Origin: Thiomicrospira sp.
GTDB taxonomy: Bacteria; Pseudomonadota; Gammaproteobacteria; Thiomicrospirales; Thiomicrospiraceae
Length of the DNA stretch: 33,516 nucleotides
Direction of reading: 5' to 3'
Assembly: GCA_030826915.1 (NCBI GenBank)
Contig: JAUUDE010000034.1
Span: 1-33,516 of the forward strand
Of this stretch, positions 2,595 to 32,173 are shown in pieces (within the stretch, counting starts at the first letter, position 1; the number at the start of each line of letters is the position of its first letter). Under the pieces are notes generated by a model. The model was not told the DNA's origin, ran no database searches, and was given only the letters and a program-made list of their open reading frames with translations. The position numbers and the translations under genes were made by a program.

Positions 2595-5500
2595 TTACTG
2601 CGCAAAATCTTCTGGATCATAACCTAAGTTTGGTGCTAACCATTTCTCAGCTTCTTCAATTGACCAGCCTTTACGCACTGCATAGTCTTCTACTTGGTCA
2701 CGACCGACTGAGCCGACACCAAAATAGCGAGATTCTGGATGTGCAAAGTAGGTTCCTGAAACTGCTGCGGTTGGCGTCATGGCGTAACTGCTGGTGATTT
2801 CTAAGCCGATTTTTTCATCTGGTTTAAGAAGTTCCCAAAGCGTGCCTTTTTCAGTGTGGTCTGGGCAAGCAGGGTAGCCTGCTGCTGGGCGAATGCCTTG
2901 GTAACGTTCTTTGATTAAGTCTTCGTTATCCAGTTTTTCATCTGGCGCATAACCCCAGTCTGAGGTACGCACGATTTCATGTAGCGTTTCGGCAAAGGCT
3001 TCGGCAAAACGGTCGGCTAAGGCTTTTAGCATAATCGATTGATAATCGTCGTGATTGGCTTCAAAACGTTCAATGTGTTCGTCAATGCCAATCCCAGCAG
3101 TAACAGCAAAGAAACCAATGTAGTCGGCAATACCTGACTCTTTAGAGGCAATAAAGTCAGATAGACAGTTGTTGGCTCCCCCACGCTTTTTCTCCGCCTG
3201 TTGGCGAATGTGGTGGAATTTGTGAATCACTTCTGAACGCGTTTCATCCGCATAGACTTCAATGTCGTCACCCACACGGTTAGCTGGGTAAAAACCGTAC
3301 ACGGCTTTGGCGGTTAACCATTTTTCATCAATGATTTTCTTCAGCATTACTTGTGCATCGGCAAAGACTTTTTTGGCTTCTTCACCGACGACTTTATCTT
3401 CTAAAATGCGAGGATAAAGACCGTGTAGTTCCCACGATTGGAAGAATGGCGACCAATCGAAACGTTCTAATAGTGTTTCAAGAGGGAAGTCTTCCAAGAC
3501 TTTTGTGCCCAAGAAGGTCGGTTTAACCGGAGTGTAATCTGACCAGGCCTGGTCAGTTAACGATGGGTTTTCTCGCGCTTTATTAATGGGGATACGGCGA
3601 ACTTGTTTCGCACGTGCTTTACGTTCTTCACGCACGGTTTCATATTCGGCACGGACTTTACTGGCAAACTCTTCTTTTAGGTCGGCAGAAATTAAGCTTT
3701 GTGCCACACCTACTGCACGAGAGGCATCTTTAACGTAAACCACAGGGTGGTCATATTGAGGTTCAATCTTAACTGCAGTATGTGCTTTGGATGTGGTTGC
3801 GCCGCCAATTAATAGCGGTAAATCCATATTGCGTTCTTTCATCAACTTAGCCACATTTACCATCTCTTCAAGCGAAGGGGTGATTAGCCCAGATAGACCA
3901 ATGACGTTTGCACCTTGTTCGATTGCGGTATCTAAGATTTTCTCGGCGGGTACCATGACACCAAGGTCAATCACCTCAAAGTTATTACATTGTAAAACTA
4001 CGCCTACAATGTTTTTACCAATGTCGTGAACATCGCCCTTTACGGTCGCCATGACGATTTTACCTTGCACACGTCCAGAAGATTTTTCAGCGGCTAAGAA
4101 TGGGTCAAGATAAGCCACGGCGCGTTTCATTACACGAGCAGATTTTACTACCTGTGGCAGGAACATTTTCCCTGAGCCAAACAGGTCACCCACCACGTTC
4201 ATGCCGTCCATTAGAGGCCCTTCAATAACATTGATTGGGGCCCCGAGTTTGACACGAGCTTCTTCGGTGTCTTCTTCGATGAAATCGGTAATTCCTTTTA
4301 CCAGCGAGTGTTCTAGGCGTTTTTCTACGGATGCTTCACGCCAAGACAAATCGGCTTCTTTAGAGGCGGCAGAACCATCGCCCAAGAATTCAGCGGCAAT
4401 ATCCAGTAAGCGTTCGCCTGCTTCTGGGTCTTTGTTGAGAATGACGTCTTCTACGGCTAAACGTAGTTTTTCTGGTAGGTCATCGTAAATCGCCATTTGC
4501 CCAGCATTTACAATCCCCATGTCCATGCCTTCTTTTATGGCATAGTATAAGAATACGGAGTGAATCGCTTCACGAACTGGGTTGTTACCACGGAAAGAGA
4601 AGGAGACGTTGGATACTCCACCCGAAATCTTGGCATACGGTAGGTTAGCCTTAATCCAAGTTACTGCATTGATGAAATCTAAACCGTAGTTGTTGTGCTC
4701 TTCAATCCCAGTGGCGACGGCAAAGATGTTCGGGTCAAAAATGATGTCTTGCGGTAAAAATCCGACTTTTTCAGTTAAGACTTCATAGGAGCGTTTACAA
4801 ATTTCAATTTTACGCTCTAAGGTATCGGCTTGACCTTCTTCGTCAAACGCCATAACAATGGCGGCTGCACCGTATTTTTTGACCAATTTAGCGTGTTTTA
4901 TAAAGGCTTCTTCTCCCTCTTTTAGGGAGATGGAGTTGACCACGCCTTTTCCTTGAATGCACTGCAGGCCTGCTTCAATGACTTCCCACTTTGAGGAGTC
5001 AACCATAATTGGCACTCGAGACGCTTCAGGTTCAGAGGCTAAAAGGTTAAGAAAACGCACCATGCAGGCTTTTGCATCGAGCATCCCTTCATCCATATTG
5101 ACGTCTATAATCTGCGCGCCATCTTCCACTTGTTTTACCGCGATATTAATGGCATCGTCGTAGTTTTCTTCAATAATAAGACGTTTAAAAAGAGCTGAAC
5201 CTGTTACGTTGTTACGTTCACCTACGTTAACAAACAGGCTGTCTTCGTCAATGTTCAGAGGTTCTAAGCCCGATAGTCGACAAGCGGGTTTTATTGCTGG
5301 AAGTTTGCGGGCAGGTTGTGCTTGGGCGGCATTTGCCATGGCTTGCACGTGGTCTGGTGTGGTACCACAGCAACCACCAATAATGTTTATCCAACCACGT
5401 TTGGCCCAAACGTCAATCTCTTCAGCCATTTGTTCTGGGGTTTCGTCATACTCACCAAATTCATTAGGCAGGCCTGCATTAGGGTGAATAGACACATAGG

Positions 5501-6305
5501 TTTCACAAACACGGCTTAACTCTTCTACATAAGGGCGCAGCTCTTGAGGGCCTAATGCACAGTTAAGTCCAACTGAAAGTGGTTCAGCATGCGCAACGGC
5601 ATTGTAAAAGGCTTCGGTGGTTTGACCCGATAATGTACGGCCAGAAGCGTCGGTAATGGTTCCAGAAAGTTGAATCGGAATCTCATAACCGACTTCATCT
5701 TCCACCTCTTTTACTGCAAAAATAGCGGCTTTGGCGTTGAGTGTATCGAATATGGTTTCAATCAGAATGGTGTCAACGCCACCTTCTAAAAGCGCATGGG
5801 TGGCTTGTTTGTAGGCCGTGACCAGTTCATCAAATGAGGTATTACGGAAGCCGGGATCATTGACGTCAGGTGAAATAGAGGCGGTACGGTTGGTTGGCCC
5901 TAACACACCGGTAACAAATCTTGGTTTACCATCTTCTTGTTCAGCAATATCACACGCTTCTCGTGCCACTTTTGCGGCCGCCAAATTAATCTCACTAACA
6001 TACTCCTGCATGTCGTAATCGGCTTGTGCAATGGTGGTAGCGTTAAATGAGTTGGTCTCAAGAATATCGGCACCTTTGCGCAAAAACTCAAGGTGAATAT
6101 CACGAATAACATCGGGCTTGGTAATGACAAGAATATCGTTATTACCTTTGATATCCATGTGATAGTCGGCAAAACGTTCACCACGAAAATCTTCTTCAGT
6201 CAGATTTAGGTTTTGAATCATTGTTCCCATGGCGCCATCAAGAACGACAACACGTTCTTTAAGAAGATTGCGTAATGTTTCAATGCGTTTTGTGCGATTT
6301 GTCAT
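2595..6305 (-). CDS. metH: Cobalamin-dependent methionine synthase
   Basis: This 1236-residue protein matches the usual length of MetH (about 1227) and transfers the methyl group of 5-methyltetrahydrofolate to homocysteine through methylcobalamin. The N-terminal homocysteine domain has the zinc cysteines in LNCALG (about 250) and GGCCGTT (about 313). A pterin-binding domain follows ([16 protein letters not shown]; later [20 protein letters not shown]). The B12 domain has the cobalt-ligand motif [11 protein letters not shown] near 765. The C-terminal AdoMet reactivation domain contains [12 protein letters not shown]. All parts look intact. It ends 48 nt before the HEPN gene and is separated from the divergent barrel gene by 312 bp. 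Three CAGGCCTG palindromes lie inside it. Confidence 0.98.
3542..3553. repeat. ACCAGGCCTGGT palindrome, copy 1 (in metH)
   Basis: This copy is part of the 14-bp perfect palindrome GACCAGGCCTGGTC and is read on the metH strand as Asp-Gln-Ala-Trp. Two shorter relatives in metH, GCAGGCCTGC at 4964-4973 and 5468-5477, are read as Ala-Gly-Leu. Confidence 0.8.
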
Positions 6306-6617
6306 GGTGTACCGATTTTATGTTTTATTAAAAGAGAAATAGTGGTTAAAGCTGTTTTAAATTTTTTTCCAGTAAAGGACTCATTTTTTATTTTTATGAG
6401 CTTCTATGGATTCTAATTTATCTTATGAATTTTATTGAGCCAAATGAAGTATTTTACCCGATTTCTGTTTTTGAACAGAGTATTAATCAAAAGTAATGAT
6501 TAAAGCCCATCTATTTTAGTAGGTTTTTATCTTTTTGGTAAATCAAAGAGTAAATAAGTTGTATAATTAGCTTAACTAATACCATCATAAATTAAACTTA
6601 TTAAGGATGATAAAATT
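6306..6617. other. 312-bp divergent intergenic region between metH and the barrel gene
   Basis: This A+T-rich region must carry the metH promoter (minus) and the barrel-gene promoter (plus). I see no recognisable SAM or cobalamin riboswitch. A weak hairpin (CTCAT near 6381, ATGAG near 6397, T/A-rich loop) is the only inverted repeat that I noticed. Confidence 0.45.
6562..6567 (+). promoter_or_regulatory. Possible -10 element of the barrel gene
   Basis: A perfect TATAAT lies about 50 nt before the ATG at 6618. The best -35-like hexamer, TTGGTA at 6535-6540, is 21 bp away, which is longer than ideal. This is therefore only a candidate. Confidence 0.4.
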
Positions 6618-7556
6618 ATGTTTTTTATAGATAAACAACAATTTAAAACACTGGGCTCTTTAGCTGGTGGAGTAATGCTTTTTGCTTTTGGAAGTTTTAA
6701 TCAAGCACAGGCTTCTGAGATTCAGATGGGGTCTGGAACAATGAGTATGCAAGCTGGAATTTTTGGACTGGAAAGTGCGATTGAATCTTCAGTTAATGTT
6801 CTGACCTTGAAAGAAAACCATGCGAACTTGTTTAAAAGTGATGTCTTTTATAATTACAGTTTAAGTACCTATACATCTGGTAAGTTTCAGAATGAGAATA
6901 ATAGCTTAAGCACGATTGGTGGTGGTGATATCTCCTTGCCAAATACTGACTATTCTTGGGATGGCATCGATGCTCAGTTAACACTAGGTTACGATGTGTT
7001 TAAAGAGAGCGAGTTTGATTACTTGGCATTAGGTGTCTCTTTAGGAATCGCTCTTCCTTACATTGGTAACAATGGTACAGGCGATTCATCCAGCACATCA
7101 AGCACAACTACAACCGTGCCTTTTGGTACAACTTCTTCGGTTGATTTTATTGCCTCAGATACCGAGTTAACTGCATATAAAATTGGCCCTAAATTACTGT
7201 TTAGTAAAAGCCTAAACCCAATAACATCGGTGTATGGAGAAGTGAGTTATGCAACCCAAAGGATTGAGGTGAAAAATTCGCCATTAAAAATGGCTTACAG
7301 TACATCAGGTGACTATTATTCATATGGTTTAGGCATGAGATATATGCCGCTTAGAACAAAAAAAGAGATTGGTTTTGATTCAATAGGTTATTTTACGATT
7401 GAACCAAGTTTGTATTTTACGTTGGGTGTGAATTACGCTGAACTGACAATGGATAAGTTGAATGTAGACCTAACAGGTATGAAATATTCGGTGGATTCGG
7501 CTAAAACTCGTATTTCATCTACAACACTTAATTTAGGCGTAGGGTACTCTTTTTAA
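6618..7556 (+). CDS. Outer-membrane beta-barrel protein, hypothetical
   Basis: This 312-residue protein has a typical signal peptide: a Lys-containing N-terminus, the hydrophobic stretch LAGGVMLFAFG, and a probable cut after AQA at residue 32. The mature part alternates aromatic and polar residues (DVFYNYSLSTYT, SVYGEVSYATQRIEV, YFTIEPSLYFTLGVNY). It ends in Phe (GVGYSF), the terminal residue recognised by the barrel assembly machinery. A Ser/Thr-rich loop of about 20 residues near 152-172 is probably surface exposed. AAGGATG precedes the ATG. It stands alone, divergent from metH. The general barrel fold is well supported; the transported substrate or role is unknown. Confidence 0.75.
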   Translation: MFFIDKQQFKTLGSLAGGVMLFAFGSFNQAQASEIQMGSGTMSMQAGIFGLESAIESSVNVLTLKENHANLFKSDVFYNYSLSTYTSGKFQNENNSLSTIGGGDISLPNTDYSWDGIDAQLTLGYDVFKESEFDYLALGVSLGIALPYIGNNGTGDSSSTSSTTTTVPFGTTSSVDFIASDTELTAYKIGPKLLFSKSLNPITSVYGEVSYATQRIEVKNSPLKMAYSTSGDYYSYGLGMRYMPLRTKKEIGFDSIGYFTIEPSLYFTLGVNYAELTMDKLNVDLTGMKYSVDSAKTRISSTTLNLGVGYSF

Positions 7557-7694
7557 TGAAGTCATTACAATTTGAATATTCTCGGTAATTATTTAGGTTT
7601 TTTATGGCTTAGGTAGAGCATTAACACAACAATAAAGGTATATTTTGATGCAATTTCAAGCGAGGTTGTAAATATAAATTTGAAGGTTTTAAAT

Positions 7695-7703
7695 TGCTAT
7701 AAT
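7695..7703 (+). promoter_or_regulatory. Extended -10 promoter candidate for trmA
   Basis: TGCTATAAT fits the extended -10 form (TGn-TATAAT), which can work without a good -35. It lies about 34 nt before the trmA start codon. Confidence 0.5.
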
Positions 7704-7736
7704 TAGCGCTTTATTGAAAACATAGATGTAAATTTT

Positions 7737-8834
7737 ATGCTCTGCCAAGTTTTTCCTGAACAATATGATTCTCAATTAGCGGATAAAGTCGATCGATTAA
7801 ATGATCTACTGCCAGCATCGGCACGAAGTTTACCTCAATCGGTTTTTGCCTCTTCCCCAGAACACTATCGGGCTAGAGCCGAGTTTCGTATTTGGCATGA
7901 AGGCAATCAATCTGATTACATAATGTTTAATCAAGAGACCAAAGAGAAGGTGGCGATTAAGCAGTGCCCAATGGCGATTAAATCCATTGCCAATTTAATG
8001 CCAATATTGATGGAAGAAATTACTCAAAAACCTGTATTGAGAGAGCGCCTTTTTCAAATTGATTTTTTAGCCACATTAAGTGGTCAAATGTTAGTGACAT
8101 TGATTTACCGTAAATCAATTGCAGATGACCAGGCCTGGTTAGATGCGGCGAATGCCCTAAAAGCAAAGCTAGCAATTACCCATATTATTGGCCGAGCACG
8201 TAAACAAAAAATTGTTTTAGATGAAGATTTTGTGGTTGAGAAACTGAACGTAGACGGCAAAACCTTTATTTACCAGCAAGTAGAAAATAGCTTTACTCAG
8301 CCTAATGCGGAGATGGCACAAAATATGTTGTCTTGGGCTCGTAAAATGTCAAAAAATGCAAAGGGTGACTTAATTGAACTCTATTGCGGTAACGGACATT
8401 TCTCGATTGCTTTGGCCGAGCATTATAATCGTGTATTGGCTACAGAAATCTCTAAAACATCCGTTGCTTCTGCAAAATACAACATAGCCGCCAATCAGGT
8501 TGAAAATGTCACTGTCATTAAGATGGCGGCTGAAGAAATCAGTGCTGCGTTACAAGGACAAGAGTTTTTTAGACTGAAAGAGATTGATTTGAAAGGTTAC
8601 GATTTTCAAACCATTTTTGTTGATCCTCCACGTTCAGGTTTGGATGACTTAACCCGCAAAATGGTCACGGAGTTTGACCAAATTATTTATATCTCCTGTA
8701 ACCCTGAAACCTTAGCGGTGGATTTACAATCGATTCAACAAACGCATGACATTATAGAAACGGCTTTGTTTGACCAATTTCCGTATACGCACCACATAGA
8801 GTCGGGTGTGTTCTTAAAAAGAAAGGCAAATTAA
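7737..8834 (+). CDS. trmA: tRNA (uracil-5-)-methyltransferase TrmA
   Basis: This enzyme makes 5-methyluridine at position 54 of tRNA using S-adenosylmethionine. At 365 residues it matches the E. coli protein (366) closely in length. Family hallmarks are AEFRIWH near 44-50, the SAM-binding [13 protein letters not shown] near 217-229, [10 protein letters not shown] near 298, and the nucleophilic Cys in YISCNPET near 323. The C-terminus contains [15 protein letters not shown] with the general-base glutamate. It lacks the Fe-S cysteine cluster of RlmC/RlmD paralogues, which supports TrmA. The exporter gene starts at the very next base after its stop codon, so the two form an operon. A GACCAGGCCTGGTT palindrome encodes DQAWL near residue 131. 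Confidence 0.96.
8128..8139. repeat. ACCAGGCCTGGT palindrome, copy 2 (in trmA)
   Basis: This copy is within GACCAGGCCTGGTT and is read as Asp-Gln-Ala-Trp-Leu. At this place E. coli TrmA, as I remember it, has one residue fewer (DDEW against DDQAW), which hints at insertion or local rewriting. Confidence 0.8.
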
Positions 8835-9602
8835 ATGGTTTTAGCTTGGATTGGAGCGCTTTTCATTGGTGTGACATTAGGTCTGTTAGGTTCAGGTGGT
8901 TCAATTTTAACCGTACCGGTTTTAACCTATTTAGTGGGTCAAGAAACCAAAGTGGCTATTGCCGGATCTTTGATGATTGTTGGGGTTATCAGTCTGTTTT
9001 CAGCTATCCCGTACGCTAGGCAAAAACTGGTGAAATGGCGCACAGTCATTCTGTTTGGTGTTCCAGGTATGGTTGGTGCGGTGGTGGGTGCATGGTTGGC
9101 GCACTTTGTCAGTGATGCTTTGCAAATGTTGATATTTTCGGTTCTGCTTTTGGCCGCATCTTATCTTATGTTTAAACCAATGAAGTTGGACGAAGCAGAT
9201 AAAGAGCACGCAGAGCGCGGCATGAGCAAAATTGCCATTGATGGTTTTGTTGTAGGCGCGGTAACAGGCCTGGTTGGCGTTGGGGGTGGGTTTCTCATTA
9301 TTCCTGCTTTAGTTCTGCTAGGTGGTTTGTCTATGCGCTTAGCGGTAGGTACCAGTTTGGTGATTATCTCTGTTAAGTCGTTTGCTGGTTTTATTGGATA
9401 TTTAGGTGTTTTAGAAACCCTCAACCTAAGTATTGATTGGCAAATTATTTGGATATTCTCCATCATTGGTGTGGTGGGCGGCTGGTTAGGCCATAAGATT
9501 AGTAGCAAGGTGAATCAACAGCAATTAAAGCGCGGCTTTGCCCTGTTTTTGGTGTTAATGGGTGCGTTTATTCTTTATAAAAATATCCCTAATTTGTTTT
9601 AG
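8835..9602 (+). CDS. TauE/SafE-family sulfite/anion exporter
   Basis: This 255-residue integral membrane protein has about eight hydrophobic segments. It is built as two related halves with Gly-rich repeats (GLLGSGGSILTVPVLTYLVG at about 15-35 and GLVGVGGGFLIIPALVLLGG at about 140-160), the hallmark of the TauE/SafE (formerly DUF81) family. Members move sulfite, sulfoacetate or other anions across the inner membrane; the substrate here is not known. The start ATG directly follows the trmA stop codon. In a sulfur-oxidising host a sulfite role would make sense, but that is speculation. Confidence 0.85.
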   Translation: MVLAWIGALFIGVTLGLLGSGGSILTVPVLTYLVGQETKVAIAGSLMIVGVISLFSAIPYARQKLVKWRTVILFGVPGMVGAVVGAWLAHFVSDALQMLIFSVLLLAASYLMFKPMKLDEADKEHAERGMSKIAIDGFVVGAVTGLVGVGGGFLIIPALVLLGGLSMRLAVGTSLVIISVKSFAGFIGYLGVLETLNLSIDWQIIWIFSIIGVVGGWLGHKISSKVNQQQLKRGFALFLVLMGAFILYKNIPNLF

Positions 9603-9650
9603 CTTGATTTCGCATATTAAAAGCTTTTGTTTACTGGCTAAAAGTGAATT

Positions 9651-9662
9651 ACCAGGCCTGGT
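9651..9662. repeat. ACCAGGCCTGGT palindrome, copy 3 (intergenic)
   Basis: This copy lies in the 95-bp gap between the exporter and the MOSC gene, free of coding constraint. As RNA it could form a short hairpin, but no clear U-tract follows. Confidence 0.8.
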
Positions 9663-9697
9663 TGTTTAAGGTTGTCGTTTAATTGAAGGACATAACT

Positions 9698-10375
9698 ATG
9701 AAGATTGTTTCACTCAATATAGGTCAACGTAAAGAGCAACCATGGCGTAACGGCACTTTTACTGCTATTCACAAAGAAGCGGTTACAGGAGCGTTGCAGT
9801 TAACTGAAACAGGCCTGCAAGGTGATGAGCAGGTTGATACCAAAAACCACGGTGGTGAGGAAAAAGCAGTATTAATTTTGCCAAGCAATGCCTATATGCG
9901 ATTTGAAATCAGTGAGCCTTACGGTTTTTTAGGTGAAAACCTCACTATTGACGATATTGATGAAGCGCAGGTGTGTTTAGGCGACCGTTTACAAATTGGT
10001 TCGGTTTTGTTGGAGGTGACACAGCCTAGATCACCGTGTTGGAAACTGGATGCTTTAGCTGCCGACAATACCAATTGGCAAACAGGAAAGTTTTTGCAAG
10101 CCTATAGCGACAGTGGTCGTGTTGGGTTTTATTGCCGAGTGCTTGGTACAGGTGAGTTACAAAAAGGCCAATCGGTTACTTGGTTAACTCGCAATAAAGA
10201 CAGCAACAAAGATAAAAAATATCCAAAAATCACAATTCAAAAACTGTTTTTAGCCAAACATAAGCCTAGTACAGATAAGGATTGGTGTTTGCTCGAAAAG
10301 GCCTTAGAACATCCAGCGCTTTCCAAGGCTTGGCAAAATCAATTGATGCATTTGTTACAACAACGTCATCCTTAA
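9698..10375 (+). CDS. MOSC domain-containing protein (YiiM-like)
   Basis: The start is taken as ATG 9698, because GAAGGA lies ten bases upstream; the longer frame from TTG 9683 would include the ribosome-binding site itself. This gives 225 residues. MOSC domains are the C-terminal molybdenum-cofactor-binding domain of cofactor sulfurases, and stand-alone members such as YiiM act in molybdoenzyme-linked reduction of hydroxylated compounds. Visible motifs are KNHGGEEKAV near 49, GFLGENLT near 80, and the conserved cysteine in TQPRSPCWKLD near 118, the likely Mo ligand. It converges with the DUF3616 gene 39 bp away. Confidence 0.85.
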   Translation: MKIVSLNIGQRKEQPWRNGTFTAIHKEAVTGALQLTETGLQGDEQVDTKNHGGEEKAVLILPSNAYMRFEISEPYGFLGENLTIDDIDEAQVCLGDRLQIGSVLLEVTQPRSPCWKLDALAADNTNWQTGKFLQAYSDSGRVGFYCRVLGTGELQKGQSVTWLTRNKDSNKDKKYPKITIQKLFLAKHKPSTDKDWCLLEKALEHPALSKAWQNQLMHLLQQRHP

Positions 10376-10414
10376 CTATTTACCTATTTTCTATTGAGCT
10401 GATGCATCATTGGT

Positions 10415-11416
10415 TTAACGAATAGCACATTCAAATTGGCTAGGTTGACCATTTATTAAACCGTCTTGCACAACAACAAATTGAATGGATTGGCTGGTTT
10501 TTTGAATGAATTGAATGCCTTCTGGTTTACCTTGTGAACTAGGTAAATCGCATAAATGACGTAAGTTTTGTTGATTAGAATCTTTATTTTGTATCGAATC
10601 CTCACCATTCCAAACAAAGACTTGATAAGGCGAGGTTTGGTCGCCCACCGCACCAGTTAAAATCAGAAATTGATTGCCCATTTCTGACATTCCTCTTATG
10701 CCGTTGCCAGCAAGAGTTAAGTAACGTGTTTGTTGTTTTTTCACTCTAAATGTTTTTTTAGCCAACTTTAAGCGTAAAACAGGCACGATATTACCTCGTA
10801 AAACTGGGCCTCTAAACCCAAGCAATAAGCGGCCTTTTTTATCAATGGCTAGGCCTTCAATATCGATGCCATTCTCTTTGCTTGGAATGCCGACAAACGA
10901 CTTTAATATTGGGTGTTTTGATAGTTCAGCGGTTAAAGAGAGTGAGTTAATTTGACGAACGTTGGATTGATTATCCAACTCTATTCTAAATAGCTGTTGT
11001 CTGTCTGGTTCAGGATAGACTTTTTGTAAACGTTTTATATTCTCTTTTTCAGACAGGCCTGCTTTGATTTTTTTACGTTTGGCGCTGTGTGAACCCAAAG
11101 CATATAAATACGGCTTCTTCCAAGCTAAGGCTTCAATATCAATCTCATTAGATTTGTCGGTTAAGGTAATCAGTTTGTGAGGTTGCCACTGATGATTTTT
11201 AGCCCTTTTTAAAACTTCAATCTGATTGCCTTCGTCGCTTGCCAAAAACATCCAACTTTTATTTATGGCTATACCACTGATATTCATATTATCAATATTA
11301 AGAGGCTTAGAAACCAACCAGGCCTGGTTATTACTCGTTTTAGCAACCGTGTTTGCCCAGCAGTTTACACTGTAAAAGTTTAAAAACAGTAGGATAATGG
11401 GTATTAACAAACGCAT
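10415..11416 (-). CDS. DUF3616 family secreted protein
   Basis: This 333-residue protein has a clear signal peptide (MRLLIPIILLFLNFYSVNCW, then ANT). The mature sequence has several beta-propeller-like blades with the family features DIEALAWKKPYLYALGSHS (about 95-113) and DIEGLAIDKKGRLLLGFRGP (about 190-209). These resemble DUF3616 proteins, whose function is unknown. The AACCAGGCCTGGTT palindrome encodes NQAWL right after the signal peptide (about residues 29-33). It is divergent from ttcA and convergent with the MOSC gene. The DUF assignment is from memory of the motif and should be confirmed. Confidence 0.7.
   Translation of the reverse strand: MRLLIPIILLFLNFYSVNCWANTVAKTSNNQAWLVSKPLNIDNMNISGIAINKSWMFLASDEGNQIEVLKRAKNHQWQPHKLITLTDKSNEIDIEALAWKKPYLYALGSHSAKRKKIKAGLSEKENIKRLQKVYPEPDRQQLFRIELDNQSNVRQINSLSLTAELSKHPILKSFVGIPSKENGIDIEGLAIDKKGRLLLGFRGPVLRGNIVPVLRLKLAKKTFRVKKQQTRYLTLAGNGIRGMSEMGNQFLILTGAVGDQTSPYQVFVWNGEDSIQNKDSNQQNLRHLCDLPSSQGKPEGIQFIQKTSQSIQFVVVQDGLINGQPSQFECAIR
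11317..11328. repeat. ACCAGGCCTGGT palindrome, copy 4 (in DUF3616 gene)
   Basis: This is the core of a 14-bp perfect palindrome, AACCAGGCCTGGTT (11316-11329), read on the minus strand as Asn-Gln-Ala-Trp-Leu. Confidence 0.8.
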
Positions 11417-11496
11417 AATTTTCTCAAAGTTCTCATGATCATTAGTCCAAGTTTACATCAAAGCATTTATAAACGAAGCAGTTTGCTTAACTTCTT

Positions 11497-11525
11497 TTGG
11501 GGTTATCTGTTTGCCAGTGTAAAAT
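11497..11525 (+). promoter_or_regulatory. Sigma-70-type promoter candidate for ttcA
   Basis: TTGGGG (11497-11502) and TAAAAT (11520-11525) are 17 bp apart. The -10 ends 25 nt before the chosen ATG at 11551. This also argues against the TTG at 11497 as a start codon. Confidence 0.45.
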
Positions 11526-11550
11526 AGCGCAATTGAAAAAGGTTGAAGTT

Positions 11551-13304: not shown

Positions 13305-13327
13305 CCAAGCTTGGTTGCTTTAATTTT
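13299..13327. terminator. Hairpin at the lpxL-like/EamA convergence
   Basis: AAGTAACCAAG and CTTGGTTGCTT form a 22-bp near-perfect inverted repeat with one G-T pair, covering the acyltransferase stop codon. TTTAATTTT follows on the plus strand. The core AACCAAGCTTGGTT resembles the AACCAGGCCTGGTT palindrome with two complementary changes. It probably ends transcription of the ttcA-lpxL-like operon. Confidence 0.5.
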
Positions 13328-22076: not shown

Positions 22077-22079
22077 GAG

Positions 22080-23423
22080 CTATTCGCCTTTTTTCAATAG
22101 GCAATAGAAAAAACCATCCATTCCTAATCGGCCAGGTAAATATTGATTGCCAGGTGTTTCAAAAGTTAGGGTAGATTCCAGCTCTAATGGAATCACGCTT
22201 GCGGTTGTCTCGGATTCGATAAAGCGTTGCATTTGCAAAGTGTTTTCTTGGGGAAGTACCGAGCAGGTTGCGTATAGGAGTTGACCACCTGGTTTTAAGG
22301 TTGCCCATAAGGCTTGTAAAATGTTCGCTTGGGTTTCGACTAAAGCTTCAATGTCTTCTTCTGTTCGATGCCATTTGATATCAGGATGACGACGAATAAT
22401 ACCTGTTGCCGAACAAGGCGCATCCAGTAGAATTTTGTCAAAAAGTTGTTTGTCCCACCATTGCTCAGGCATTGAAGCATCACCAGCGGCATACTCTGCT
22501 TCTAAATCCAGTCGGTAGAGGTTTTCAGCCAAGCGATCTATGCGATCGGGTGCTTTTTCTAAAGCAAATACTTTGGCTTTATTGTTGGACAACTCAAGAA
22601 GGTGAGTGGTTTTACCGCCTGGTGCGGCACAGGCATCTAAAATATGTTTGCCAGGTTTGGGTTGCAATATATTTGCCGCCTGTTGTGCGGCACCATCTTG
22701 CACACTAAAGCCACCTTCTTCATAGCTTGGCAGTTGAGTAATGTCCGTACTGCTTTCTAAAATAATACCTTGCGGTGCAGTTGGGTGTGGTTTGGCAACC
22801 ACTTCAGCTTCTTTTAATAACGCCAGAAAAGCTTCTCGTGATTGCTTCATGGTATTGACACGTAAGGTCAATGGAGCAATTTCATTATTGGCTTGCATAA
22901 TGGCTTGCCAATCATCTGGGTAGCCTTTACGCAAAGCTTTAAATAACCACTGCGGGTGCGAATATTTTTGAGCGGGTTTTAGATCTACTTCCGCACAAAT
23001 TTTTTCTTGTTCACGTAAAAAGGTACGTAATACTCCATTTACAAGTGCTTTAGCCCAAGGTTTTTTCAGTTTTTGAACCACACTAACTGTTTCAGAAACC
23101 GCGGCATGTTCGGGAGTTTCCATATACAGAATTTGATAAAGACCAATTAGAATTAATTGATTGATATCTTCATCTTTGTCTTTTAATTTCTTTTTGAGAA
23201 GTTGAGCGCGAATGGCTTCTAGGCGTGCTTGCCAGCGCAGAGTGCCAATGACTAAGTTTTGTGTGAAATTACGTTCACGACGATCTTGAAATTGCGCTAA
23301 ACCTTCTGGCAAGCTCTGACTCAATGAACGGCCGTTTTCAATCACGGTTAAACAAATTTTTAACGCAATAAAACGACTGTTGAGCCCAGAGTTATGATGA
23401 GCATTGTCTTGCTTGTTGCTCAT
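22080..23423 (-). CDS. rsmB: 16S rRNA (cytosine-967-C5)-methyltransferase RsmB
   Basis: This 447-residue protein has the NusB-like N-terminal RNA-binding domain (ALKICLTVIENGRSLSQSL) and a C-terminal SAM domain (LDACAAPGGKTTHLLEL near 262). The two conserved cysteines of m5C RNA methyltransferases are in LLDAPCSATGIIRRHPDI (about 330) and YATCSVLPQEN (about 385). The start overlaps the fmt stop (TGATG). Length and neighbours fit RsmB (Sun/Fmu) exactly. Confidence 0.96.
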   Translation of the reverse strand: MSNKQDNAHHNSGLNSRFIALKICLTVIENGRSLSQSLPEGLAQFQDRRERNFTQNLVIGTLRWQARLEAIRAQLLKKKLKDKDEDINQLILIGLYQILYMETPEHAAVSETVSVVQKLKKPWAKALVNGVLRTFLREQEKICAEVDLKPAQKYSHPQWLFKALRKGYPDDWQAIMQANNEIAPLTLRVNTMKQSREAFLALLKEAEVVAKPHPTAPQGIILESSTDITQLPSYEEGGFSVQDGAAQQAANILQPKPGKHILDACAAPGGKTTHLLELSNNKAKVFALEKAPDRIDRLAENLYRLDLEAEYAAGDASMPEQWWDKQLFDKILLDAPCSATGIIRRHPDIKWHRTEEDIEALVETQANILQALWATLKPGGQLLYATCSVLPQENTLQMQRFIESETTASVIPLELESTLTFETPGNQYLPGRLGMDGFFYCLLKKGE

Positions 23424-24391
23424 CAGAACTGATAACCAATTAAATGACGCGCTTGAGCAAAATCATAAGCACTCATGGCTTTTTTGCCTGCAGGTTGAAC
23501 TTGTTGCAAATAAATAGGTTTGTCTCCAGTAGCAACAATTAACCCCACCTTAGTTAATGCAACGACCAGGCCTGGTTGTGTTTGAGTATTTGCATATTCA
23601 GACTGTTCTTGCGTTGTTAGCTGGCGAGCTTGCCATACTCGTAATGGTTTTTCTTGAAAGGTTGTATAGGCAACCGGCCAGGGATTAAAGGCTTGAATTT
23701 TGCGTACAATGTTTAAAGCAGGTTGCTCCCATTGAATTAATGCTTCCTCTTTATGCATTTTTTCTGCGTAAGTCACCAATGATTCATCTTGTTTTTCAGA
23801 TATTATGGCGTTTTTTTGTAAACCATCAAGGGTGGCTAATAAGGCATCGCAGCCTAATGTACTCAAGCGGTCATGCAATGTTTGTGCGGTATCTTCTTCA
23901 CTAATATCGGTGCTGATTTTATAGAGCATATCGCCAGTGTCCAAGCCCGCATTCATCTGCATAATGGTGACACCGCTCTGCTTATCACCCGATTCAATAG
24001 CTCGCTGGATGGGGGCGGCACCACGCCATCTTGGTAATAGTGACGCGTGAATATTAAGGCAACCCATTTTCGGCATGTCTAACACCACCTGTGGCAGAAT
24101 TAAACCATAAGCAACCACAATCATAATATCGGCATTTAAACGGTTTAGAGTTTGTTGTGCATCTTCATTTCTTAAGGATTCAGGCTGGTAAACAGCAATG
24201 CCATTTTCTTCGGCAACTTGTTTCACAGGGCTAGCTGTTAATTTACGCCCACGCCCAGCAGGACGGTCAGGTTGTGTATAAACGGCAATCACTTCGTGAT
24301 GCGAATCTAATAAGGCTTGCAGTGGCGCAACTGAAAAATCAGGTGTGCCTGCAAAGATAATACGTAAAGCTGGGCTTGGTTGTTGATTCAT
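23423..24391 (-). CDS. fmt: Methionyl-tRNA formyltransferase
   Basis: This 322-residue enzyme formylates initiator Met-tRNA using 10-formyltetrahydrofolate. The N-terminal Rossmann part begins IIFAGTPDFSVAPLQALL. The catalytic motif is CLNIHASLLPRWRGAAPIQR near 105-124, and TIMQMNAGLDTGDML contains the conserved Asp near 145. The C-terminal tRNA-binding domain has IQAFNPWPVAYTTF. It lies 6 nt after def, the usual partner. A GACCAGGCCTGGTT copy is read here as Pro-Gly-Leu-Val. Confidence 0.97.
   Translation of the reverse strand: MNQQPSPALRIIFAGTPDFSVAPLQALLDSHHEVIAVYTQPDRPAGRGRKLTASPVKQVAEENGIAVYQPESLRNEDAQQTLNRLNADIMIVVAYGLILPQVVLDMPKMGCLNIHASLLPRWRGAAPIQRAIESGDKQSGVTIMQMNAGLDTGDMLYKISTDISEEDTAQTLHDRLSTLGCDALLATLDGLQKNAIISEKQDESLVTYAEKMHKEEALIQWEQPALNIVRKIQAFNPWPVAYTTFQEKPLRVWQARQLTTQEQSEYANTQTQPGLVVALTKVGLIVATGDKPIYLQQVQPAGKKAMSAYDFAQARHLIGYQF
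23565..23576. repeat. ACCAGGCCTGGT palindrome, copy 7 (in fmt)
   Basis: Unlike the five copies read as Gln-Ala-Trp, this one is read in another frame, as Pro-Gly-Leu-Val. Confidence 0.8.
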
Positions 24392-24952: not shown

Positions 24953-26068
24953 ATGTCAAATTTTGCCGATTTACCCACAATATTACGCTTTCACGTCTGT
25001 CATGTCTCTTTTAAGCAGCTACAACAGTTAGAACGCCATTTTGGCAGTTTTGACAGTGTGTTTTCTGCTACTGAATCTGATTTGCAAAACAGTGAAATCC
25101 TAAATGACTTTCAATGTAGCAGTTTGCCGAGTGACAATACTAGCAAACTTGTAGAGCAAGCTTTGGATTGGGGAGAGCAGACTTCGCAAACATGGTTAAA
25201 GTTGGGTGATCAAAATTTTCCTAAACAACTCGCCGAGATAACAGACCCACCAATTGTTTTGGGTGTGCGTGGTAATACAGAATTACTGCATGATCCGCAG
25301 GTTGCGATAGTGGGCAGTCGGCATGCGTCAAAACAAGGTATATCAACCGCTAAAGACTTTGCTCAACATTTGTCGCAGCAAGGTTTGGGTGTAACCAGTG
25401 GTTTGGCTTTGGGAATTGATACGGCTGCACATCAAGGTGGCCTGCTCGGTATGGGAAAAACAGTCGCCGTGGTTGCGACAGGTTTAGATAGAATTTACCC
25501 CGCATCTAATCAGCGATTAGGTCATCAAATTGTGGAAGAAGGGGTGATGGTTTCTGAATTCCCACTTGGTACCAAGCCTTTGAATTATAACTTTCCGAAA
25601 CGTAATCGAATTATTAGTGGTTTAAGTGTCGGGACTTTGGTTGTAGAAGCGGCACTAAAAAGCGGCTCTTTAATCACCGCAAGAACCGCATTGGAGCAAG
25701 GACGAGAAGTATTTGCTGTACCTGGATCTATTCATAATCCGCAAGCCAAAGGCTGCCATCAACTGATAAAACAGGGGGCAAAACTGGTTGAATCGGGTCA
25801 GGATATATTAGAAGAGTTGGCCGCCAATTTACAGTACTCACTGCAACTCGAACAAAACGATAGTGCTGAACAGAATGGTGTAAATACAACTCAAAAAAGT
25901 AGCGAGCATTTTTTATTTGAGTGGATAGACTATGAGCCAATCGGTTTAGATGAGTTGGTTGTATTGAGCAAAATGCCAGTTTCTAGTTTGCAAGGTGAAC
26001 TGATGATGTTGGAATTATCGGGTGAAATAGAGGCAATGTCAGCGGCAAGATGGCGAAGAATTCAGTGA
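24953..26068 (+). CDS. dprA: DNA-processing protein DprA
   Basis: This 371-residue protein loads RecA on incoming single-stranded DNA during natural transformation. It has an N-terminal SAM-like region and the Rossmann core (AIVGSRHASKQGISTAKDFA, about 120-139, then TSGLALGIDTAAHQGGLLG). FPKRNRIISGLSVGTLVVEA follows near 219. A C-terminal winged-helix remnant (EPIGLDELVVLSKMPVSSLQ) completes it. It diverges from def. In many gammaproteobacteria dprA is followed by smg (DUF494) and topA; here smg is absent and the fold-back element plus an opposite-strand regulator lie between. Confidence 0.96.
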   Translation: MSNFADLPTILRFHVCHVSFKQLQQLERHFGSFDSVFSATESDLQNSEILNDFQCSSLPSDNTSKLVEQALDWGEQTSQTWLKLGDQNFPKQLAEITDPPIVLGVRGNTELLHDPQVAIVGSRHASKQGISTAKDFAQHLSQQGLGVTSGLALGIDTAAHQGGLLGMGKTVAVVATGLDRIYPASNQRLGHQIVEEGVMVSEFPLGTKPLNYNFPKRNRIISGLSVGTLVVEAALKSGSLITARTALEQGREVFAVPGSIHNPQAKGCHQLIKQGAKLVESGQDILEELAANLQYSLQLEQNDSAEQNGVNTTQKSSEHFLFEWIDYEPIGLDELVVLSKMPVSSLQGELMMLELSGEIEAMSAARWRRIQ

Positions 26069-27593: not shown

Positions 27594-30125
27594 ATGACCA
27601 ATTTGGTGATAGTGGAGTCCCCCGCTAAAGCAAAAACAATCGAAAAATATTTGGGTAAAGATTTTACCGTCCGTTCAAGTTACGGTCATATCCGCGATAT
27701 CCAGAAAAAAGGTATGGGAATCGATCTTGAAAATGGGTTTTTGCCAAATTACGAAATTTCACCCGATAAAAAGAAAAATGTTGCGGAGCTAAGAAAGTTA
27801 GCAAAGACGGCAGATGCAGTCTGGCTGGCGACGGATGAGGACCGCGAAGGGGAAGCCATTGCGTGGCACCTAGCGGAAGCCCTAAAGTTAGACATTAATA
27901 CAACCAAACGTATTGTTTTTCATGAAATAACCAAGCCTGCTATTCAAGCCGCGATTGCCGAACCAAGAACGGTCGATTTGGATTTGGTTGATGCACAACA
28001 AGCGCGCCGTATTTTAGACCGTATCGTGGGGTTTGAGCTTTCTCCAATCTTATGGAAAAAAATTCGTACAGGCCTGTCGGCTGGTCGAGTTCAATCCGTT
28101 GCGGTGCGTTTGATAGTAGAGCGTGAAAGAGAAGTGGAGGCTTTTGAAGCTAACTTTGTTTTTAGGGTTCAAGGTCAATTAAAACTACTGGATTCTAGTG
28201 GTAAACCGGTTGGTGATTTGGATGTAAAACGAACCGCTACCTTCGCAACTGAAGAAGAAGCTACCGCGTTTTTGGAAGTGGTGGCAAAAGCCAATCTTAG
28301 CGTTGTTTCGTTAGAAGAAAAGCCGGCTAAGCGTTCACCAAAAGCGCCTTTTACGACCTCAACTTTACAGCAAGAAGCTTCTTCCAAGCTTGGTTTTTCA
28401 GTAAAACAAACCATGATGGTTGCCCAGCGTTTATACGAATCTGGAAAAATAACTTATATGCGTACCGACTCGGTGAATTTATCCGAGTTGGCGATTGAAC
28501 AAGCTGAAAACACCATTACCGCTCAATATGGTGCAAACTATAGTCATCCAAGACGTTATAAAACTAAAAATGCGGATGCTCAAGAGGCTCACGAAGCAAT
28601 TCGTCCAACCGATTTTGCCGTTGATATGGTAACAGGTGAAAGAAATGAGCAACGTTTATATCAATTGATTTGGCGTCGAGCAATTGCCTCACAAATGGCA
28701 GATGCGCAGCTAAAAAGAACCACCGTTGATGTTGGTATTGATTTATTGCCTGATGATAAATTAACCGCTAAAGGCGAGGTGGTGACCTTTGATGGTTTCT
28801 TAAAAGTATACGACTTGGATAGTAAAGACGGGGGTGGTTTATTGCCACCTATGACCATTGGACAAGTATTAAGTGTGACGGAATTAGGCGCTAAACAAAG
28901 TTTTAATCGCCCGCCAGCTCGTTATAACGAAGCCAGCTTGGTTCGTACCCTTGAAGAGATGGGAATTGGTCGACCATCCACCTATGCGCCAACTATCGAT
29001 ACCGTTCAGCAGCGTGGGTATGTGGTTAAAGAGGATCGTGAAGGTAAGCCAAGAGATTATCGCCAAATTACTTTGGTTGATGGTCAGGTTAAAGCAGAAA
29101 CGCTTTCTGAAATGGCGGGTACAGAAAAAAATAAACTTTTCCCTACCGATATCGCAGGCATTGTTACCAATTTTTTAACCAAACATTTTGGCGATATTTT
29201 AGATTATCAATTTACAGCAAAAGTAGAAGATAAGTTTGATGTGATTGCACAAGGGAAAATGCAGTGGCAGGCTATGCTTGACGAGTTTTACTCGCAATTT
29301 CATCCTAAGGTGGTTGCCGCTGAAGATGTTTCACGAGAAGAAGCGGGCCAGGCACGCCCTTTAGGAAACCATCCTGAAAATGGCAAGCCGATGTTTGTAA
29401 AAATAGGGCGTTTTGGGCCTTACGTGCAATTGGGTGATGGTGAAAATGAAGAAAAACCCACCTTTGCTAGTTTAATGCCTGGCCAAAAAATGGATCTGTT
29501 AACACTAGAGCAAGCTTTAGATTTATTTAAACTGCCACGAGAAGTGGGTGAAATGCCTGAGAGCTTTAAAGCAAAAGCGGTTGATGGATCTGAATTTGGT
29601 GTTGAAAAAGGCCAAATGATTATTGCAAAACAAGGTCCGTTTGGTCCTTATTTGGAATATGGTGTGAAGATGTATGCGCCAATCAAAGGGTTTGATCCAT
29701 TAAATATTACTTTAGATGAAGCGGTGGCATTAGTTGAAAATAAGATTCAGGCGGATGCGGATAAAATTGTAAAAACGTTCCCTGGAACAGATGTCAAAAT
29801 TCTTAAAGGGCGTTGGGGACCATACATTACCGATGTAACCACTAAGAAAAACGCTAAGATAGCCAAGGACGAAGATGCATTAGCACTCACTTTTGAAGAG
29901 TGTGAAAAGCGTCTAGCGGAAGCTCCAGAACCTAAAAAACGTGGTCGAGGAGCCAAAAAAGCGCCGGCTAAGAAAAAGGCGCCAGCCAAGAGAACTACGG
30001 CTAAAAAAGCGCCAGCTAAAAAGACAACAGCTAAGAAAACCACCGCGAAAAAACCTGCGGCCAAAAAAGCTCCAGCTAAGAAGCCAGCCGTCAAGAAAGC
30101 TACCAATAAAACGGCTTCTGAATAG
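27594..30125 (+). CDS. topA: DNA topoisomerase I (type IA)
   Basis: This 843-residue enzyme relaxes negative supercoils. It has the Toprim domain (VIVESPAKAKTIEKYLG at 4-20, the acidic triad in ATDEDREGEAIAWHL) and the catalytic tyrosine in KITYMRTDSVNLSE near 290. Instead of Cys4 zinc ribbons, the C-terminus has three repeats around GPYVQLG, GPYLEYG and GPYITD, and only one Cys remains in that part. The last 70 residues are a Lys/Ala/Pro-rich, histone H1-like tail of repeated AKKAPAKK units that probably binds DNA or RNA without sequence preference. A CAGGCCTG site encodes TGLS. Confidence 0.97.
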   Translation: MTNLVIVESPAKAKTIEKYLGKDFTVRSSYGHIRDIQKKGMGIDLENGFLPNYEISPDKKKNVAELRKLAKTADAVWLATDEDREGEAIAWHLAEALKLDINTTKRIVFHEITKPAIQAAIAEPRTVDLDLVDAQQARRILDRIVGFELSPILWKKIRTGLSAGRVQSVAVRLIVEREREVEAFEANFVFRVQGQLKLLDSSGKPVGDLDVKRTATFATEEEATAFLEVVAKANLSVVSLEEKPAKRSPKAPFTTSTLQQEASSKLGFSVKQTMMVAQRLYESGKITYMRTDSVNLSELAIEQAENTITAQYGANYSHPRRYKTKNADAQEAHEAIRPTDFAVDMVTGERNEQRLYQLIWRRAIASQMADAQLKRTTVDVGIDLLPDDKLTAKGEVVTFDGFLKVYDLDSKDGGGLLPPMTIGQVLSVTELGAKQSFNRPPARYNEASLVRTLEEMGIGRPSTYAPTIDTVQQRGYVVKEDREGKPRDYRQITLVDGQVKAETLSEMAGTEKNKLFPTDIAGIVTNFLTKHFGDILDYQFTAKVEDKFDVIAQGKMQWQAMLDEFYSQFHPKVVAAEDVSREEAGQARPLGNHPENGKPMFVKIGRFGPYVQLGDGENEEKPTFASLMPGQKMDLLTLEQALDLFKLPREVGEMPESFKAKAVDGSEFGVEKGQMIIAKQGPFGPYLEYGVKMYAPIKGFDPLNITLDEAVALVENKIQADADKIVKTFPGTDVKILKGRWGPYITDVTTKKNAKIAKDEDALALTFEECEKRLAEAPEPKKRGRGAKKAPAKKKAPAKRTTAKKAPAKKTTAKKTTAKKPAAKKAPAKKPAVKKATNKTASE

Positions 30126-30143
30126 TTTTCGTTGTTTTTATCC

Positions 30144-30185
30144 AACCGGGCTTCATTCAAGCAGGCCTGGTTAGTTTGTTTTTGG
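30144..30185 (+). terminator. Probable topA terminator using a CAGGCCTGGTT arm
   Basis: AACCGGGC (30144-30151) can pair with GCCTGGTT (30165-30172) with one G-T pair, and AGTTTGTTTTT follows. The right arm is a CAGGCCTGGTT copy of the dispersed palindrome (30162-30172). Confidence 0.5.
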
Positions 30186-30332
30186 TAGTTTGTTCTTAAT
30201 CTAGATCTGAAAAGCCTTTCAAACATATAAATCACTTTAGTCTGCAATCGGGCAAAAGACAGGTTATTTAAAATTAACCTCGTTCATCAGTATTAATTTA
30301 GTAAAATATCCTGTTTTATAAAATATCTTATC

Positions 30333-30361: not shown

Positions 30362-30409
30362 GTTGTTAGCGCGTTTAAGATTCATCAGTTCAAGTAAAGA
30401 GACGTTCGC

Positions 30410-32173
30410 ATGAAGCAGCAAATTGCGCAGATTTTGACCGAGGTTGTTCAACAGCTAAAGCAACAGGGTGTCATTCCAGAAGACACATCACCACGAATCA
30501 ATGTGGAAAATACCCGAGATAAATCGCACGGTGATTTTGCAACGAATTTAGCCATGATGTTGACCAAGCAAGCAGGAATGCCGCCTAGAGATTTAGCTCA
30601 AAAGATTGTTGAGTTAGTGGCAGATGTGCCTGTTGTGCAAAAAGTTGAAATTGCTGGGCCTGGTTTTATCAACTTCTTTGTGGATGATTCGGCTAAATTT
30701 GACGTGGTTCAGACCGTTTTAGAACAGAAAGAAAACTTTGGTAAATGTAATGTAGGTCAAGGGCGTTCAGTATTAGTGGAGTTTGTCTCTGCTAACCCAA
30801 CAGGTCCGTTGCATGTTGGCCATGGTCGTGGTGCAGCCTATGGCGCAAGTGTCGCCAATTTGCTTGAAGTGGCGGGTTTTAAAGTTGCCAAAGAGTATTA
30901 CGTGAATGATGCTGGTCGTCAGATGGATATTTTAGCCACATCAGTGTGGTTACGTTATTTAGAACAGTGTGGTGAAACTTTTACCTTTCCAAGTAATGGC
31001 TATAAAGGCGATTATATTTACGCTATTTGCGATAGCTTACAGGCGCATTATGCAACCACTCTTCAAAAGCCTGTTTCTGAAGTGTTTGCTGGTGTGACAC
31101 CTGATGAAGGTCAAGAAGGTGGCGATAAAGAGAAACATATTGATGATTTAATCGTAAAGGCAAAAAATCTGCTTGGTTCTCAACATTATGAAGCGGTGTT
31201 TAAAGCGGCAATTGATGCGATTCTTTCTGATATTAAGGAGGACTTAGCCGGGTTTAATGTGAACTTTGATGAATGGTTTTCTGAACGTTCATTAATGGAT
31301 TCAGGTGTGATTGATGCGGCAATTGAAAAGCTACAGGCATCTGGAAAAATCTATGAAAAAGGTGGTGCTCTTTGGTTTAAATCGACCGATTATGGTGATG
31401 AAAAAGACCGTGTAGTGGTGCGTGATAATGGAATTAAAACTTATTTTGCATCGGATATTGCTTACCATTTTAATAAGTTGGAGCGTGGCTTTGATATATT
31501 GATTGATATTTGGGGTTCGGATCACCACGGTTATGTCCCGCGTGTTAAAGCGGCTATGGAAGCAATGGGAACCGATTCAGAAGCCTTAAAAGTGCTATTG
31601 GTGCAGTTTGCGGTTTTATATCGTGGTGGCGAAAAGCTAGCGATGTCTACCCGTAGCGGTCAGTTTGTTACTTTGCGTGAATTACGTGATGAGGTAGGCA
31701 GCGATGCAGCCCGATTCTTCTATGTTCAGCGTAAGTCTGAACAGCATATGGATTTTGATCTAGATTTAGCTAAATCAAAATCGAATGAAAACCCTGTTTA
31801 TTATATTCAGTATGCTCATGCGCGTATTTGTCGAGTTCTCGCTCAGGCTGTAGAAAAAGGTTATAGTTTGGATACTGAAGCAGGCCTGGGTAATTTAGCC
31901 AAACTTGAAAGTGAACAAGAAATTCACATTGCAACAGAATTAGCTAAATACCCTGAAATTGTGGCTCGTGCAGCAGCGGTGTATGAACCTCATCAAATTG
32001 CCTACTACCTTAAAGATTTAGCTCATGGCTTACACTCCTATTACAATGCGAATCAGTTCATTGTTGAAGATGATGAGATTCGTCAAGCACGTTTAACGTT
32101 AATTTCTGCTGTTCAACAAGTGTTGAAGAATGGTTTGGCAATTATTGGTGTTTCTGCTCCAGAGAAAATGTAA
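30410..32173 (+). CDS. argS: Arginyl-tRNA synthetase
   Basis: This 587-residue class I synthetase charges tRNA-Arg. The N-terminal Add-1 domain recognises the tRNA elbow. The HIGH motif is HVGH in ANPTGPLHVGHGRGAAYGAS (about 130-149). The KMSKS-equivalent is the family's altered form in EKLAMSTRSGQFV near 411. The C-terminal anticodon-binding domain contains YAHARICRVLAQAVEKGYS. An intact start and stop are present. The SPOR-domain gene starts at the next base. A CAGGCCTG site encodes Ala-Gly-Leu near residue 493. Confidence 0.97.
   Translation: MKQQIAQILTEVVQQLKQQGVIPEDTSPRINVENTRDKSHGDFATNLAMMLTKQAGMPPRDLAQKIVELVADVPVVQKVEIAGPGFINFFVDDSAKFDVVQTVLEQKENFGKCNVGQGRSVLVEFVSANPTGPLHVGHGRGAAYGASVANLLEVAGFKVAKEYYVNDAGRQMDILATSVWLRYLEQCGETFTFPSNGYKGDYIYAICDSLQAHYATTLQKPVSEVFAGVTPDEGQEGGDKEKHIDDLIVKAKNLLGSQHYEAVFKAAIDAILSDIKEDLAGFNVNFDEWFSERSLMDSGVIDAAIEKLQASGKIYEKGGALWFKSTDYGDEKDRVVVRDNGIKTYFASDIAYHFNKLERGFDILIDIWGSDHHGYVPRVKAAMEAMGTDSEALKVLLVQFAVLYRGGEKLAMSTRSGQFVTLRELRDEVGSDAARFFYVQRKSEQHMDFDLDLAKSKSNENPVYYIQYAHARICRVLAQAVEKGYSLDTEAGLGNLAKLESEQEIHIATELAKYPEIVARAAAVYEPHQIAYYLKDLAHGLHSYYNANQFIVEDDEIRQARLTLISAVQQVLKNGLAIIGVSAPEKM

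Follow-up and report, generated by a model that had tools for sequence, protein, structure and literature searches.

Why should a single palindromic octamer, CAGGCCTG, recur 19 times in one bacterial contig? The question is raised by JAUUDE010000034.1 (GenBank assembly GCA_030826915.1, listed as Thiomicrospira sp.), whose 33,516 nucleotides were analysed over their full length and are called the window here. The contig, which the window covers in full, belongs to a 1.786-Mb genome (86.4% complete), and comparison of the MetH protein encoded there points to Thiomicrorhabdus, to which the three nearest named relatives belong (86–89%; the next ones reach at most 66%). CAGGCCTG is its most frequent 8-mer of any kind (19 copies; the runner-up has 11 and the next palindromic 8-mer 7). 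At a G+C content of 40.6%, an order-3 Markov model gives 0.64 sites per window unmasked and 0.29 masked; the original prediction, an annotation made from the letters alone, had estimated 'well under one'. All 19 sites lie where that prediction had placed them (9266 becomes 9265, inside its tolerance of ±1), and seven of the 19 do extend to the 12-mer ACCAGGCCTGGT. We propose that the octamer, together with the unlike words that take its place in related genomes, is a DNA-uptake-type self signature that switches dialects and is maintained by biased transformation, an account that, judged from the sequences, is on balance probably correct.

Genome-wide counts and spread across lineages

The source genome, a Thiomicrorhabdus, holds 655 copies of CAGGCCTG and 197 of ACCAGGCCTGGT, against 1 and 0, respectively, for reversed-pattern controls. 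A count near expectation, or clustering in this window alone, had been named beforehand as speaking against a dispersed element, and neither is seen. Counts were then compared across 37 genomes of the family, 32 of them Thiomicrorhabdus and five of other genera, where their distribution is bimodal: 18 genomes carry 236–1,173 copies (one per 2.3–8.5 kb) and 19 carry 3–74. High-copy genomes make up 15 of the 32 in the genus and three of the five in the other genera. A seven-protein tree (36 genomes, G004 missing, with a long-branch warning for G032, G034, G035 and G036) requires at least six changes between the high and the low state.

Outside the family, 21 genomes have 0–222 copies of CAGGCCTG, with 0–91 for the reversed controls. 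Among 369 genomes drawn from the class, four belong to the family, namely the source genome, G026 (no ACCAGGCCTGGT), G035 (181) and G331 (none), and each of the other 365 has at most five copies of ACCAGGCCTGGT.

Replacement words in low-copy relatives

Words other than CAGGCCTG were sought in genome samples, mostly of about 40 kb; G023 and G024 were sampled over 100 kb, and G001, G002, G004, G006, G011, G028, G032 and G034 over 8–33 kb. G023 carries a palindromic CCGGCCGG 47 times in 99.9 kb (1.2 expected, 0.38 masked), which sits within TACCGGCCGGTA; CCGGCCGGTA occurs 48 times against 0.19 expected. This word amounts to the dodecamer minus its inner A/T pairs, with the symmetry kept.

G020, identical to T. 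cannonii HH3 over 8,183 bases of overlapping sequence, has a non-palindromic word, AACAGGCCGGGT, often with CTC or CTG and an A-tract in front, whose left half resembles the half-site of G017. The 12-mer AACAGGCCGGGT occurs 13 times against 0.01 expected, and CAGGCCGG, at times unextended, 37 times in 65.6 kb with a strand ratio of 19:18. The G020 flank scan covered one strand, and weak words elsewhere may escape both it and the other short samples.

A clade of six genomes (G001, G011, G016, G022, G028 and G029), with 3–24 CAGGCCTG each, carries instead 77 tracts of G(7–12) in 197.7 kb, or one per 2.6 kb, which is inside the density range of the palindrome. The typical word reads A-G(7–12)-(A/T)(A/G)AAATTT: AAATT, AATTT or ATTTT lies at most 12 nt downstream of 46 of the 77 tracts, compared with 6.5% at random positions, and the other 31 fit the AAATTT pattern poorly. 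Tracts of this kind number 11 in 16 high-copy genomes (634 kb sampled) and 3 in 12 further low-copy genomes (574 kb). They occur inside conserved genes as well as outside (examples in L020, L243, L245 and L246); one in trkA encodes part of a glycine stretch, a placement taken from a listing that also counts runs of six. The G-tract with AAATTT may be one more dialect of this system or something separate. Both the asymmetric and the G-tract word have A/T-rich flanks and show no strand bias where this is checkable.

No convincing word was found in the samples of G003, G010, G012, G013, G019, G024, G026, G031, G032 and G034, and G004 was hardly sampled. Over-represented words of G032 and G034 were considered as dialects and rejected, as they look like short repeats. 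In G034 (L036, L248) there are about four near-identical 28-bp repeats around GCAGGACTGGGGATT, with a T-rich run downstream, in 25 kb. G032 (L034, L249) has short repeats scattered through its samples that contain either CCCTTCCCCC or GTCTGAATA; some of those with GTCTGAATA form inverted pairs. G036 holds a tandem array with the 6-bp unit GAACCA (L038, about 810–910).

A proposed DNA-uptake signature with dialects

An uptake signature is favoured because relatives carry different words, two of them non-palindromic, flanked by A/T-rich sequence and balanced between the strands as far as this is checkable. Also counted in its favour are the high copy numbers far above a masked Markov model, the even spread over both strands of one chromosome with enrichment in noncoding DNA, the retention or loss of sites as wholes, two foreign-looking stretches free of sites, and the presence of ComEC and dprA, all described below. 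Neither the asymmetric G020 word nor the G-tract word is predicted by a methylase or by a dimeric reader of palindromes. In the proposed mechanism, a DNA receptor of the transformation machinery would prefer word-bearing DNA, so that fragments with the word would enter and recombine more often than others, restoring lost copies and spreading new ones at permissive places. If the preference shifted, the old word would decay and a new one accumulate, giving rise to dialects, which here would be the palindromic CAGGCCTG, the palindromic TACCGGCCGGTA, the asymmetric AACAGGCCGGGT and the G-tract with AAATTT. What is observed are the words, their numbers and distribution, their conservation, their turnover between lineages and the lack of tracking of the octamer by three methyltransferase families; what we infer are the uptake preference, its receptor, the maintaining role of biased transformation and one shared job for all four words. 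Such a preference would account for all four words and for their comparable density, the A/T-rich sequence beside them and their turnover from one sister lineage to another.

Placement of the sites

The prediction that sites lie in genes and in two intergenic gaps holds, with 17 of the 19 window sites inside open reading frames (ORFs) taken as genes and those at 9653 and 30162 between genes. The latter overlaps a mechanical antisense ORF (29747–30247) that is not taken as a gene. Coordinates are those of the 12-mer where the site extends to it.

3542–3553: ACCAGGCCTGGT, in metH
4965–4972: CAGGCCTG, in metH
5469–5476: CAGGCCTG, in metH
8128–8139: ACCAGGCCTGGT, in a tRNA uracil-5-methyltransferase gene
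9265–9272: CAGGCCTG, in a TauE/SafE-family gene
9651–9662: ACCAGGCCTGGT, between genes
9810–9817: CAGGCCTG, in ORF 9683–10375
11054–11061: CAGGCCTG, in a DUF3616 gene
11317–11328: ACCAGGCCTGGT, in a DUF3616 gene
12412–12423: ACCAGGCCTGGT, in a lipid A acyltransferase-family gene
13025–13032: CAGGCCTG, in a lipid A acyltransferase-family gene
13647–13654: CAGGCCTG, in an EamA-family gene
14368–14379: ACCAGGCCTGGT, in ORF 14234–14848; octamer intact in 6 of 6 near species aligned
15194–15201: CAGGCCTG, in trkH
15986–15993: CAGGCCTG, in trkH
23565–23576: ACCAGGCCTGGT, in ORF 23423–24391, which by its position we take to be fmt; octamer intact in 6 of 6 near species aligned
28069–28076: CAGGCCTG, in topA
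30162–30169: CAGGCCTG, between topA and argS
31881–31888: CAGGCCTG, in argS
24953–26068, + strand: dprA (PF02481), a transformation gene given for context; in the source genome none of the sites falls within it

Placement at larger scale was followed in G030, where 22 sampled stretches contain 181 CAGGCCTG in 440 kb (6.8 expected unmasked, 3.8 masked). Each 20 kb holds 3–12 sites (mean 8.2, variance 7.1), which occur on both strands, and in this one genome neither a positional trend along the chromosome nor a deviation of spacing from random was found. Based on longest-ORF gene calls, 122 of the 181 sites lie in coding sequence and 59 in noncoding DNA or across a gene edge. Coding DNA has 0.32 sites per kb and noncoding DNA 1.01, a 3-fold difference.

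These densities bear on whether the word is a by-product of codon or amino-acid usage, or of chance. Two frames of the octamer do encode common peptides, (P/A/T)GL and QAW, as such an origin would have it. However, density is higher in noncoding DNA, sister lineages with the same genes are nearly devoid of the word, and samples of 14 species contain 371 octamers where a masked order-3 model gives 10.8, a 34-fold excess. The relatives' counts, the noncoding density and the masked model refute this explanation, which retains a vanishingly small probability.

Two stretches without sites look foreign. G036 has an 83-kb gap among its listed dodecamer sites, and 20 kb from within it (L358, C1 235001–255000) hold no CAGGCCTG, have a G+C content of 0.452 compared with 0.566 in the G036 samples, and carry an exporter gene and HipA-like and Fic-family genes. 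In the G030 stretch L329, the first 13.5 kb (297–13500) are site-free and the rest has three sites; the site-free part opens with an integrase gene and a YagK/YfjJ-type (replication-type) gene. Both were chosen for being site-poor, as L327 also is, and serve as examples rather than a survey.

Site anatomy and conservation

With its flanks, the G030 site reads approximately AAnTTACCAGGCCTGGTAAnTT, and information fades about 11 bp either side of the dyad. The ACC/GGT extension of the octamer typifies G021, G030 and G009, with A and C each at about 77–90%. In G005, G008, G017 and G025 (the last identical to T. chilensis DSM 12352 over 7,275 bases of overlapping sequence), A or G often precedes the core, which explains their low ACCAGGCCTGGT counts.

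Conservation was assessed in codon alignments of the syntenic region from six near species, with 14 site positions and species pairs that are not independent. In pairwise comparison with the orthologous position, 96 octamers match exactly, 3 differ at one base, 12 at two, 24 at three and 11 at more, whereas control NNGGCCNN octamers in the same alignments give 116, 346, 401, 206 and 116, respectively. Two of the 14 positions are intact in all six species. Between near species, sites are either retained or lost as wholes, a pattern that agrees with selection or drive acting in large populations but, taken alone, singles out no mechanism. In the samples of 14 species, with sites masked, one-off forms number 298 against 241 expected (1.23-fold). 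It is confined to the outer two pairs (166 versus 101), the inner two showing none (132 versus 140), and two-off forms are at expectation (2,524 versus 2,564).

Several of these properties would also suit a site, similar to the cyanobacterial highly iterated palindrome HIP1, for a dimeric chromosomal protein that acts inside the cell in nucleoid organisation, recombination or repair, with weak selection per site in large populations. The strict palindromic core, with information reaching about 11 bp to either side of the dyad, resembles a dimer operator; the one-off excess confined to the outer two pairs is as for HIP1; and the long-lasting conservation of sites and the preserved symmetry of the G023 word agree with it as well. 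Set against this are the asymmetric word of G020 and the G-tract word of a whole clade, and in G030 the absence of a chromosome-position trend and the random spacing. We regard a protein site of this kind as the main rival, unlikely but with an appreciable share of probability.

Methyltransferases

The original prediction had offered a methyltransferase target as an alternative. An orphan DNA methyltransferase would mark GGCC or AGGCCT, and methyl-directed mismatch repair would raise its copy number step by step, the model put forward by Elhai for cyanobacterial highly iterated palindromes (HIPs). Indeed, GGCC is common to CAGGCCTG, CCGGCCGG and CAGGCCGG, and HIP genomes also have alternate palindromes. 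However, the three families to which the search was limited are observed alike in high- and low-copy genomes: PF00145 is above cut-off in 7 of 18 high-copy and 8 of 19 low-copy genomes and, in the 23 of the 37 family genomes searched for the other two (12 high-copy, 11 low-copy), PF01555 is matched in 3 of 12 versus 4 of 11 and PF02086 in 3 of 12 (one under cut-off) versus 2 of 11. None of the three is matched in G000, G014, G017 or G021, of which the high-copy G014 and G021 consist of a single contig each. The G-tract word, moreover, contains no such target. Because the three families do not track the word and two single-contig high-copy genomes have none of them, the HIP1-methyltransferase model is unsupported, and we consider a methylation signal improbable. 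Of the three readings first offered, which also included a structural-protein target that keeps some probability, an uptake or recombination signal is the one that our results favour.

Dcm/Vsr repair, which acts on CCAGG/CCTGG, was considered in addition, as CCAGGCCTGG amounts to two such sites head to head. It was rejected because other dialects have no such sites and 10 of the 18 high-copy genomes have no PF00145 match; in an eleventh the match is only under cut-off.

Competence machinery and evidence against an uptake signature

ComEC is found in 33 of the 37 family genomes, 17 of 18 high-copy and 16 of 19 low-copy. The presence of dprA in the window, originally read as a hint at uptake, is real but adds little, since ComEC occurs with or without the word. 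A four-pilin cluster was examined as a source of competence pilins and rejected: it occurs in high- and low-copy genomes alike, and its gene order and sequence resemble a type II secretion operon, under gene names that we assume. A lone pilin ORF of G030 (L322) yielded nothing.

Two observations concern related genes. G003 has a run of large pilin-like genes, 204–548 aa (L357, C1 2005000–2020000), and the four-pilin cluster is not among the three of its seven matches that are listed. In G020 (L177, C1 85709–89269) the ComEC frame measures 594 aa, compared with 834–957 aa in most family genomes, and adjoins a D12-class methyltransferase gene.

Several points weigh against an uptake signature. 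No receptor turned up, and a GspH/FimT-type pilin gave only three weak matches in the family, all in low-copy genomes. ComEC is equally common where no word was found and is therefore not discriminating. The dialects other than CAGGCCTG are known from samples rather than whole genomes, the foreign stretches were chosen by their poverty in sites, and the G-tract word may be unrelated, for example a result of tract slippage. The one-mismatch excess is 1.23-fold, whereas for known uptake words PMC1939737 gives values of about 3-fold and 5.8-fold and describes such words as not palindromic.

Comparison with known systems

Among the closest parallels are the DNA uptake sequences (DUS) of Neisseriaceae, whose receptor is ComP, and the uptake signal sequences (USS) of Pasteurellaceae. 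DUS likewise number hundreds to thousands of copies per genome, and within one family their dialects vary from genus to genus and from species to species, one having been made by insertion, with some members lacking a clear word, as PMC3630211 describes. By comparison, the core here is palindromic in most word-bearing genomes, one clade has a G-tract, copies are fewer (236–1,173), the one-mismatch excess is smaller, and no receptor was found. USS have A/T-rich flanking segments, and this combination of a core with adjoining A/T-rich segments makes them the closest parallel for the G020 and G-tract words, although the main dialect here is palindromic. PpdA/ComN has been proposed as the USS receptor, according to PMC12616744. 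With both systems the family shares a short, strongly over-represented word dispersed on both strands, dialects inside one family (from samples) and competence machinery (dprA in the window, ComEC). Uptake words are described in PMC1939737 as non-palindromic, a property seen here in the G020 and G-tract words alone, and because CAGGCCTG and CCGGCCGG are palindromic we describe the word as working like DUS and USS without classing it as a member.

HIP1, GCGATCGC, and the alternate HIPs of cyanobacteria are alike in being highly iterated, strictly palindromic octamers; PMC4390886 reports about one HIP1 per 1–3 kb, alternate palindromes in some genomes and deviations at outer positions. They differ in belonging to another phylum and in being paired with a cognate methyltransferase, whereas here none of the three families searched follows the word and relatives carry non-palindromic words. 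A GC-rich palindrome as replacement word, typical of HIPs, is found in G023 but not in G020 or the G-tract clade.

Other dispersed motifs fit less well. The chromosome-segregation motifs matS, SlmA sites and KOPS show a bias relative to the origin or terminus, or between the strands, which is unmatched here, G030 (the one genome sampled) being without a trend. Chi recombination sites are asymmetric and strand-biased, whereas the main word is palindromic and the asymmetric G020 word is evenly divided between strands. Repetitive extragenic palindromic (REP) elements are 20–40-bp intergenic hairpin repeats, unlike sites of which 122 of 181 in G030 and 17 of 19 in the window lie in coding sequence.

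By titles and abstract starts among the matches listed, open-licence literature on Thiomicrospira, Hydrogenovibrio, Thiomicrorhabdus, HIPs and uptake words gave no account of these words. Searching by word, the matches listed, mostly biomedical or DNA-chemistry papers, contained no 12-mer and, by title, none on these bacteria. That a word can be dispersed over whole genomes and have dialects within a family is already known. Within the reach of these searches, what is new is a palindromic core that methyltransferases of the three families do not follow, together with the asymmetric and G-tract words of related genomes.

Implications for the family

Dispersed words are known from Neisseriaceae, Pasteurellaceae and cyanobacteria, and what HIP1 is for has yet to be settled. 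Here, relatives of genomes with a HIP-like palindrome carry asymmetric or G-tract words at similar density, in a free-living group with cultured species that allows a direct test between uptake bias and an intracellular protein as the origin of such words. If uptake is the cause, the family would be a natural experiment on changing self-recognition, and the words would provide a handle for transforming chemolithoautotrophs. A bolder possibility, which we advance tentatively and doubt slightly more than we believe, is that the family has repeatedly rebuilt its genomes around unlike self-recognition words, of which one is a palindrome, another a shorter form of it, a third an asymmetric core with one A-tract, and the fourth a G-tract with AAATTT. 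If so, palindromic and homopolymer-based DNA uptake sequences would exist, and a HIP-like genome would need no methyltransferase.

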